Of a stretch of DNA of 64,000 nt, positions 46,783-49,558 are shown piece by piece. The translations under genes and the position numbers were made by a program. How positions within the stretch are numbered: position 1 is the first letter of the stretch; each line of letters begins with the position of its first letter. Origin of the DNA: Halomicrobium zhouii (GTDB lineage: Archaea; Halobacteriota; Halobacteria; Halobacteriales; Haloarculaceae); NCBI RefSeq assembly GCF_900114435.1, contig NZ_FOZK01000002.1:434001-498000 (forward strand). Reading direction: 5' to 3'. The notes under the pieces were generated by a model. That model ran no database searches. It was not told the origin of the DNA and saw only the letters and a program-made list of their open reading frames with translations.

Positions 46783-48969
46783 TTAGAAGTAGTCGATGGC
46801 GGGGTGAAGCTCCTGCTTCATCCCCTTGCGCTCGCGGATCTCGGAGATCTTGTCGGGCTGGAGGTTGTCGGCCATGACCTGGAAGCCGGCGTTCTCGGTG
46901 TTCCAGGAGGCACGACCCTCGGTCGCAGAGCGGATGTCGCTGGAGAAGCCGATCATCTCGTCGACAGGCGCGATGCCCTCGACGACCATCAGGTCGCCTT
47001 CCTGGTACATGTCGTCGACGCGGCCACGGCGACCCTGGATCTCGCCGCTGGCGGCGCCCATGTGGTCGTTGGGGACGTCGATACGGACGTCCTGGATCGG
47101 TTCGAGGAGTCGGATCTCCGCGTCGATGAGCGCGTTGTGGACGGCCTCGCGCATCGCGGGGATGACCTGTGCCGGGCCGCGGTGGATGGCGTCCTCGTGG
47201 AGGCGGGCGTCGTGGAGACGGAGGAGCGCGCCCTGGACGGGCTCGGCGGCGAGCGGGCCGTCGTCGAGTGCGTCCTCGAGGCCCTCGATGAGGAGCTCCA
47301 TCGTCTCGTTGAGGTGCTGGATACCCTTCGTCTGGTCGACGAGGACGTTGGTCCCGTGGATGTGCTCGATGTCCTGGGAGGTCTCCTTGTCCATGCCGGC
47401 CTCCTGGAGCGCTTCACGGCGCTCGAGTTCGGGCATGTCCATGGAGGCCTCGCCCTTCTTGATCGTCTCGACGATCTCGTCGTCCATCGGCTCGATGCTG
47501 ATGTAGAACCGGTTGTGGCGGTTCGGCGAGATGCCCTCGACTTCGCGGGAGGGCTGCTGTGGCGCCTCGCGGTAGACGACGATGGGCTCACCGGTGTTGA
47601 TCGGGATGCCCTGGTTGCGCTCGATGCGCTGGCCGATGACTTCGAGGTGGAGTTCACCCTGGCCGGAGATGAGGTGCTCGCCGGTGTCCTCGTTGATCTC
47701 GATCTGGATGGTGGGGTCCTCCTTGGCGACTTGCTGGAGCGTCTCGATGAGCTTCGGCAGGTCGTCCATGTTCTGTGCCTCGACGGACTTCGTGATGACG
47801 GGCTCCGAGATGTGCTCGATGGACTCGAAGGGGGTCATCTCGACGGAGGAGACCGTGGAGCCGGCGATGGCGTCCTTGAGGCCGGTGACGGCGGCGATGT
47901 TGCCGGCGGGAACGCGGTCCACTTCCTCGCGCTCGCCACCCATGTAGATGCCGACGCTCTGGACGCGGTTGGTCCCGACGGTCCCGGAGACGTAGAGGTC
48001 CTGGCCCTTCTCCAGCGTGCCGGAGAAGACGCGGCCCGCGGCGATCTCGCCCGCGTGGGGGTCGACGCCGATGTCGGTGACCATCAGAACGACCTCGCCG
48101 TCCTCGTCGACGAGACGCATCGTGTCGGCGAGTTCGGAGTCGGCGTCGCCACGCCAGATGCGCGGGATACGCATGGGCTGGGCGTCGATGGGGTTCGGGA
48201 AGTGCTCACAGACCATGTCGAGCACGACGTCCGAGAGCGGCGTCTTCTCGTGGAGCTTCTGGCGCTCGTCGGCGCGTTCGAGCTCCATGATCTCGGCGAA
48301 GTCCATCCCGGTGCGCTGCATCGAGGGCATCGAGACGCCCCACTTGTAGAGGGCGGACCCGAAGCCGACGGTGCCCTCCTCGACGGAGACGGTCCAGTCC
48401 TCGATGTCGTCCATCTCCTCGGTCATGCCGCGGATGAGCTCGTTGACGTCGTCGATGACGTTGAGCAGGCGCCGCTGCATCTCCTCGGGGCCCTCCTGGA
48501 GCTCCGAGATGAGGCGGTCGACCTTGTTGATGAACAGCGTCGGCTTGACGCCCTCGCGGAGCGCCTGTCGCAGGACGGTCTCGGTCTGGGGCATGGCGCC
48601 CTCGACGGCGTCGACGACCACGAGCGCACCGTCGACGGCGCGCATCGCGCGGGTGACGTCGCCACCGAAGTCGACGTGGCCCGGCGTGTCGATGAGGTTG
48701 ATGAGGTGGTTGTCGCCCTCGTACTCGTGGGTCATCGAGACGTTGGCCGCGTCGATGGTGATACCGCGTTCCTGCTCGTCCTCCTCGGTGTCCATCGCGA
48801 GTTGCTCCCCGGCGGTCTCGTCGGAGATCATGCCCGCACCGGCCAGGAGGTTGTCAGTCAGCGTCGTCTTCCCGTGGTCGACGTGAGCGGCGATGGCGAT
48901 GTTCCGGATGTGCTCCGGGTTGTCCATCAGTGTCTCACATTCTTCAACGATCTTTTTTCGTCGGCCCAT
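46783..48969 (-). CDS. fusA: Translation elongation factor EF-2
   Basis: 728 residues from ATG 48969 ([20 protein letters not shown]); the frame is open further upstream only because it crosses the hairpin array. GTPase motifs [23 protein letters not shown] and NKVDRL are complete. The domain IV tip has [13 protein letters not shown], whose His is the diphthamide target in archaeal EF-2. It drives ribosomal translocation. It lies about 12 kb from EF-1alpha and S10 on the same strand, with accessory genes in between. Confidence 0.97.
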
Positions 48970-49010
48970 TATACGGCAGGCTATCAGTAGCAGGGGCAAA
49001 AGGGTGCTGT

Positions 49011-49287
49011 TTCGATTTGCGTGCGACAGGGTGGAGCACGCAAATCGAAGCTCGTCAGGGAGCGAACGTCGTGAGCGGACTGACGGTGTTTCCACTTGCG
49101 TGCGACAGGGTGGAGCACGCAAGTGGATGCTCGATAGACGGCGAGCGGTAGCGAGCCGTCTATCGGTGTTTCCACGTGGGCGTGCTACTTGTACGCGCCC
49201 ACGTGGAAGCTCGTTGGAGCCGACCGGTAGGGAAGGCTCCAACGGCGTTTCGACGGGAGTGCGACAGAGTTGAGCAAGAACGTCGAA
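49011..49287. repeat. Periodic array of seven hairpins upstream of EF-2
   Basis: Seven successive inverted repeats: 49011-49049 (14-bp arms), 49053-49085 (6-bp), 49091-49127 (13-bp), 49132-49165 (11-bp), 49170-49208 (13-bp), 49212-49244 (10-bp) and 49249-49287 (7-bp). Spacers alternate between AGCTCG/TGCTCG and GGTGTTT/GCGTTT, so a two-hairpin unit recurs about every 79 bp. Hairpins 1 and 3 share the loop GACAGGGTGGA and differ in their arms by matched changes (CGATTTGCG versus CCACTTGCG with complementary arms). It lies within 42-318 bp upstream of the EF-2 start. Confidence 0.85.
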
Positions 49288-49300
49288 GGGAGAAGCAGCG

Positions 49301-49558
49301 TTACTCGGGACGGAGCTGGTCGAGCGGCAGGCACGTGCCGTCGTCGGTCCGGGGTACCTCGCTCGCCAGCTTCGCCTCGTCGTCGGGGTCGACGTCGAGG
49401 ACGTCCTGGACGCGGACGTTGGGCTGGCTGCTCCGGACGCCGATGAGGGTCAGCGAGAGGTGGCCGTCGGTCCGGCCGCCGGCGACCGTGACCTCCTCGA
49501 CGTCGTCGTCCAGCGAGACCGTCGTCCACCCGTCTGGTTTCCGCACCCGGAGGTCCAT
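49301..49558 (-). CDS. Small acidic protein, unknown
   Basis: 85 residues: [20 protein letters not shown] ... [20 protein letters not shown]. It is cytoplasmic, acidic and beta-rich. No family is recognised. It is convergent with nothing and precedes the hairpin array on the same strand as EF-2. GC and codon use are like core genes, which supports a real gene. Confidence 0.55.

Follow-up and report, generated by a model that had tools for sequence, protein, structure and literature searches.

In the haloarchaeon Halomicrobium zhouii, a tight row of inverted repeats lies directly upstream of the EF-2 gene (aEF-2), and the question is what is preserved in it: a fold of RNA, a fold of DNA, or only the outcome of copying between palindrome arms. 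The row was analyzed within a window of 64,000 nt, that is, the whole stretch of DNA studied (positions 434,001 to 498,000 of contig NZ_FOZK01000002.1). On the contig, the array region corresponds to C2:482950-483310 (C2:483011), in the interior of 1,303,888 bp.

Seven hairpins beside the EF-2 promoter

An earlier note, made from the letters alone, had described seven perfect or near-perfect inverted repeats with a period of about 79 bp. A stem search bore this description out: seven hairpins, A1 B1 A2 B2 A3 B3 A4, occupy positions 49011-49287 (Table 1), and the start-to-start distances of the A copies are 79, 80, and 79. The term "near-perfect" suits hairpins 2 and 7 (B1 and A4), whose perfect arms are short and which need non-Watson-Crick steps. 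The 64-kb window contains eight perfect stems with arms of ≥10 bp and a loop of ≤20, and five of them are concentrated in 234 bp of the array. Read on the plus strand from EF-2, units and spacers follow a regular grammar, A1 GCTCG B1 CGGTGTTTC A2 GCTCG B2 CGGTGTTTC A3 GCTCG B3 CGGCGTTTC A4. The z values of the fold energy of the array were −11.8 (plus strand) and −10.1 (minus strand) for RNA and −11.2 (plus) and −11.8 (minus) for DNA; no shuffled sequence was equally stable on either strand, as RNA or as DNA.

Table 1. Features of the EF-2 locus (positions in the 64,000-nt window)
Feature	Position	Strand	Description
EF-2 gene (aEF-2)	46783..48969	-	ATG at 48969; Pfam GTP_EFTU and EFG domains; N-terminus 88-99% to haloarchaeal EF-2
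Putative EF-2 core promoter GAAACAGCACCCTTTT	48998..49013	-	BRE/TATA-like; GAAACACTACCCTTTT-type motif
Hairpin A1	49011..49049	+	14-bp stem, then GA/GA step, CA/TG, loop GGG; 11-nt loop region GACAGGGTGGA between 14-bp arms
A-to-B spacer GCTCG	49050..49054	+	its CG starts the B stem; also in relatives' arrays and at other genome loci
Hairpin B1	49053..49085	+	6-bp perfect arms, loop 21; CGTCAG-GGA-GC-GA-AC-GTC-GT-GA-GC-GGA-CTGACG
B-to-A spacer CGGTGTTTCC	49084..49093	+	overlaps the ends of both flanking stems
Hairpin A2	49091..49127	+	13-bp stem; loop GACAGGGTGGA as in A1, both arms changed
Hairpin B2	49132..49165	+	11-bp stem; CGATAGACGGC-GA-GC-GGTA-GC-GA-GCCGTCTATCG
Hairpin A3	49170..49208	+	13-bp stem; loop region TA-CTTG-TA
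Hairpin B3	49212..49244	+	10-bp stem; CGTTGGAGCC-GA-CC-GGTA-GG-GAA-GGCTCCAACG
Hairpin A4 (distal, partly decayed)	49249..49287	+	7-bp perfect arms; TTCGACG..CGTCGAA, GA/GA within the stem
85-aa ORF adjoining the array	49301..49558	-	no Pfam match

The array abuts the predicted core promoter of EF-2: the outer arm of hairpin A1 shares bases with the promoter's GAAAC. Of 143 EF-2 upstream regions, with or without arrays, 124 contain the promoter-like motif GAAACA(CT/GC)A(C/T)CCTTTT, at 26-29 nt before the EF-2 ATG. With this spacing, transcription of EF-2 is expected to begin at the ATG or shortly ahead of it, so that the array would lie outside the EF-2 mRNA. In several relatives, a divergent DUF5781 gene is located on the side opposite EF-2; the array there is thus placed between two divergent genes.

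A DNA search gave matches in 33 of 59 genomes; most of these matches reach no further than the beginning of EF-2 and its promoter. The same spacers mark arrays in members of the same genus (L009, L011, L013) as well as of further genera and families (L012, L014, L020, L033, L037, L149). Like the array studied here, they directly adjoin the EF-2 core promoter; their stems differ, and their hairpins number from one to seven or more (seven in the window, five in another order in the nearest relative, and a single one in the H. katesii group). No array was found upstream of EF-2 in representatives of Haloarcula, Natrinema, Halobacterium, and Halorubrum. Since most of the array-less relatives have the same EF-2 promoter motif, the array is not essential for EF-2.

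Some of the EF-2 regions of relatives have features of their own. In L027 (G034:C1:2799941-2803005), near-identical 137-bp units follow one another, with 10 hairpins in 520 nt; this run is a very recent tandem expansion. Transposon-like sequence is present beside or inside the hairpin arrays of two congeners (L009 and L011), and in L011 it separates the array from the EF-2-proximal hairpin. In L012 (G023:C76), the EF-2 frame stays open beyond HVDHGK, and the sequence that follows, CIAGDARVALADG, has the look of an intein inserted in the P-loop.

Covariation of the stems and a one-strand G·A code

The earlier note had also stated that hairpins 1 and 3 share a loop and that their arms changed jointly, and this proved correct: the outer arms are CGATTT/AAATCG in A1 and CCACTT/AAGTGG in A2, around the common loop GACAGGGTGGA. 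Two causes had been proposed there, selection on the fold or a copying mechanism preserving palindromes, and covariation analysis on homologous regions was suggested as a check. For this analysis, 25 distinct 39-nt A hairpins were aligned without gaps. At the 14 Watson-Crick pairs, 90% of the cells pair, a percentage biased upward by the choice of hairpins with at least 9 of 12 pairs; the informative part is the two-sided changes, which were found at eight of the 14 pairs. Columns 4-7 vary with compensation. The covariation score was 0.412 versus 0.167 ± 0.018 after shuffling (0 of 500 shuffles reached it, a count that is not a probability, the A-hairpin sequences being related), and slid controls, which preserve the relatedness, gave at most 0.105.

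In addition to pairing, the units keep a structural code on one strand, in which tandem G·A/A·G steps (or GGA/GGA) alternate with Watson-Crick steps; this code is new here. At the two two-base steps of the A hairpins, 15 and 13 of the 25 sequences have GA/GA, and the rest mostly GC/GC or GG/CC. The same GA steps plus GGA/GGA are present in the B hairpins, including that of L171 (CGTCAG-GGA-AC-GA-GC-GGA-GC-GA-GT-GGA-CTGACG). The G·A steps probably have sheared geometry. Tandem G·A pairs beside a short stem are also characteristic of the archaeal kink-turn and box C/D; unlike these, the A hairpins have symmetric 2x2 internal loops without the 3-nt bulge, and a standard k-turn is not formed. The strong covariation in relatives and the conserved non-Watson-Crick code support selection on the fold. 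The contrary outcome considered in the earlier note, neither a second locus nor any covariation, did not occur, as further loci were found as well.

The copying mechanism corresponds to a neutral bias of mutation, in which stems would be kept perfect, without selection, by template switching from one arm to the other (quasi-palindrome correction). Inverted repeats are well known to undergo such correction, and the stems are unusually mismatch-free. However, arm-to-arm templating would turn GA/GA into GA/TC or TC/GA, and such a templated change was seen once among the 25 A hairpins (TC/GA in L010). Elsewhere GA/GA persists or is replaced on both sides by GC/GC (4 and 5) or GG/CC (4), giving 13 replacements over the two steps. 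Moreover, close relatives differ by one-sided changes, namely A-T to G.T in an arm between A3 and L009 and T-A to T.C between A1 and L009, and the constancy of the one-strand G·A code is left unexplained by templating. The copying alternative is weakened by these data and appears very improbable; ordinary compensatory evolution fits the stem changes better.

A different kind of change was noted upstream of EF-2 in L122: the A hairpin at position 201 of this region has TC/TC in place of GA/GA, with the inner part flipped and the outer arms the same. This points to occasional inversion, as if by recombination between the arms.

Related modules elsewhere in the genome

A genome search for the spacers, also suggested in the earlier note, showed that the module spacers recur at further loci. 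The B module with its spacers was found 3' of a dnaK-like gene (dnaK was identified by eye, by its repeat at the C-terminus), where it is a near copy of B2, at C2:145183, and within C1:318966-319205, which is a tandem A-B-A-B array. The hairpin clusters across the chromosome are mutually homologous. A search of plasmid and phage collections gave no match.

The code itself is also widespread. The pattern stem-GA-NN-loop-NN-GA-stem occurs 95 times in 1.26 Mb of the same contig, compared with 6-10 times in Markov shuffles; 69 of the 95 occurrences are intergenic, and among the intergenic triloops of this pattern 48 of 54 are GNA. Among internal 2x2 mismatches genome-wide, GA/GA accounts for 51 of 104 in intergenic hairpins (the runner-up type for 6) and for 17 of 456 in coding hairpins. 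Perfect-stem triloops have C-GNA-G caps in 45 of 89 intergenic and 18 of 228 coding cases, CTTG loops number 6 and 1, respectively, and intergenic UUCG and GNRA loops number 1 and 3; these genome-wide counts are not independent, as the modules are mutually related, and the division into intergenic and coding comes from heuristic gene calls, some with misplaced starts. In stretches of three other genomes, the loop-type counts, which are small, have the same direction.

Two other sites were noted. At L047 (G000 C1:209429-209728), there is a further array of GA-type hairpins with a period of ~140 bp. At L281:18678 (G000 C1:278678), a B module is located inside the ORF C1:278224-279192, where it codes for a variable loop with ~5 residues more than most relatives have; the nearest congener shares this module. 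An insertion with target-site duplication, suggested by a flanking TGTACGTCCC repeat, was considered for this site and rejected: orthologues show that both YVP strands are native and that only ~5 residues differ.

The genomic distribution resembles that of the BIME/REP elements of enterobacteria, which are likewise intergenic and dispersed, are built from palindromic units in variable number, the units as well as their two short spacers alternating, and show mosaic exchange between loci. In contrast to REP, in which the stem sequence is conserved, the haloarchaeal stems vary with compensation, and only the spacers, G·A steps, and loop type are kept; these modules are, in addition, archaeal. 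The genome contains Y1_Tnp (Y1 transposase) genes, and a RAYT association of the modules is hypothetical. The array could be a set of selfish or passively spreading palindromes, moved and expanded by recombination or by a Y1-type nuclease; the fold would then be conserved as what the spreading enzyme recognises on single-stranded DNA, and the EF-2 site would be just an old landing place. The homologous clusters, the near-identical B modules at EF-2 and near the dnaK-like gene, the A-B-A-B array, the Y1 transposase genes, the differing copy number even within the genus, and the run of 137-bp copies in L027 all agree with spreading. Yet compensated stem drift at a fixed place over several genera is unexpected of a mere passenger, and no target-site duplication was found, the sole candidate, in a coding gene, being native sequence. 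We consider spreading as the whole explanation rather unlikely.

Like intrinsic terminators and attenuators, the modules are GC-rich hairpins near genes, but they form arrays of up to seven, lie upstream of the promoter at EF-2, and have no consistent orientation to genes. A terminator or 3'-UTR role was rejected, as no rule of orientation relative to genes was found. A replication-strand bias was rejected as well: orientation has no association with local GC skew (18/17/13/10).

A fold of DNA or of RNA, and its possible role

The earlier note had left the fold as either RNA or cruciform DNA. RNA would act if the array were transcribed into a structured non-coding RNA, or a long leader or antisense RNA (probably from the purine strand), with selection on an RNA fold that has tandem sheared G·A pairs. 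The very stable RNA fold (z above) is consistent with this, tandem G·A steps are common in RNA too, and nearly all G·A loops of the EF-2 array are on one strand. In the EF-2 arrays alone, G.T exceeds A.C slightly (5 vs 0, small numbers). Against this, beside 114 perfect stems genome-wide there is no G.T excess (G.T 4, A.C 5). Single-mismatch counts for G.U were too few for a decision by themselves. The Rfam search of the array found no family, its best match (asX1, 21.9 bits) being below the cut-off of 70. The loops of the genome-wide family are GNA triloops or CTTG rather than GNRA or UUCG, and the array would lie outside the EF-2 transcript. The purine strand agrees within hairpin clusters (36 of 40 and 23 of 27 pairs); in tandem gene pairs, however, orientation shows no sense preference (11 sense vs 15 antisense). 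An RNA is improbable in our judgement.

DNA analogues with such loops exist. The foldbacks of Streptomyces telomeres contain GNA (GCA/GGA) and CTTG loops with sheared G·A pairing and, in a tight row of palindromes within ~150-300 nt, show compensatory changes with sequence turnover (PMC4513846, PMC7205883). The close packing recurs in the EF-2 array, and GNA and CTTG loops dominate among the haloarchaeal hairpins genome-wide, where the sequence suggests sheared G·A closure. At EF-2, CTTG is found only in A3, and most of the other A-hairpin triloops differ from GNA; the argument for DNA from loop type therefore draws on the genome-wide family. The systems differ in that the Streptomyces palindromes form the ends of linear replicons, with 3' overhangs bound by Tap/Tpg, whereas the EF-2 array is contig-internal and is marked above all by in-stem tandem steps, GA/GA and GGA/GGA. 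Minihairpins of the d(GCGAAGC) type are exceptionally stable as DNA. Of the two folds named in the earlier note, DNA is thus favoured by the loop type and the absent strand preference, and RNA has become the less favoured; for the array family, DNA appears distinctly the more probable, and the feature preserved is probably a DNA fold.

We give an even chance to the reading that the array consists of DNA foldback modules from a strand-polar family of palindromes dispersed through haloarchaeal intergenic regions, whose fold is kept while the letters drift and which are extruded by negative supercoiling beside the EF-2 promoter. Each module would be a stem with tandem, probably sheared, G·A steps and a tight loop, with selection acting on the fold. 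Negative supercoiling behind transcribing polymerases (the EF-2 promoter is presumably very active) would cause hairpin extrusion; at the nearest hairpin, which lies over the promoter GAAAC, extrusion could take up supercoils and either compete with promoter binding or reset it. Recombination between units and exchange with modules elsewhere would change copy number and stem order. As the array is absent in many relatives, it may tune rather than enable EF-2 expression, or it may be a tolerated spreading element. A further-reaching version, which we find doubtful, is that haloarchaea possess a family of structure-coded DNA elements (sheared G·A steps and C-GNA-G/CTTG loops on one strand) read by a dedicated protein on extruded or single-stranded DNA, the EF-2 array being a conserved supercoil-sensing promoter switch.

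No prior description of such repeats in haloarchaea was found in the open-access literature, and one may exist elsewhere. The modules form a dispersed haloarchaeal repeat class that is defined by shape. Covariation is usually a sign of RNA structure; here it is found in hairpins that bear marks of DNA structure and probably lie outside the transcript. If the acting molecule is indeed DNA, as we infer, the EF-2 array would be a natural case for testing whether selection acts on DNA folds within the chromosomes of cells.
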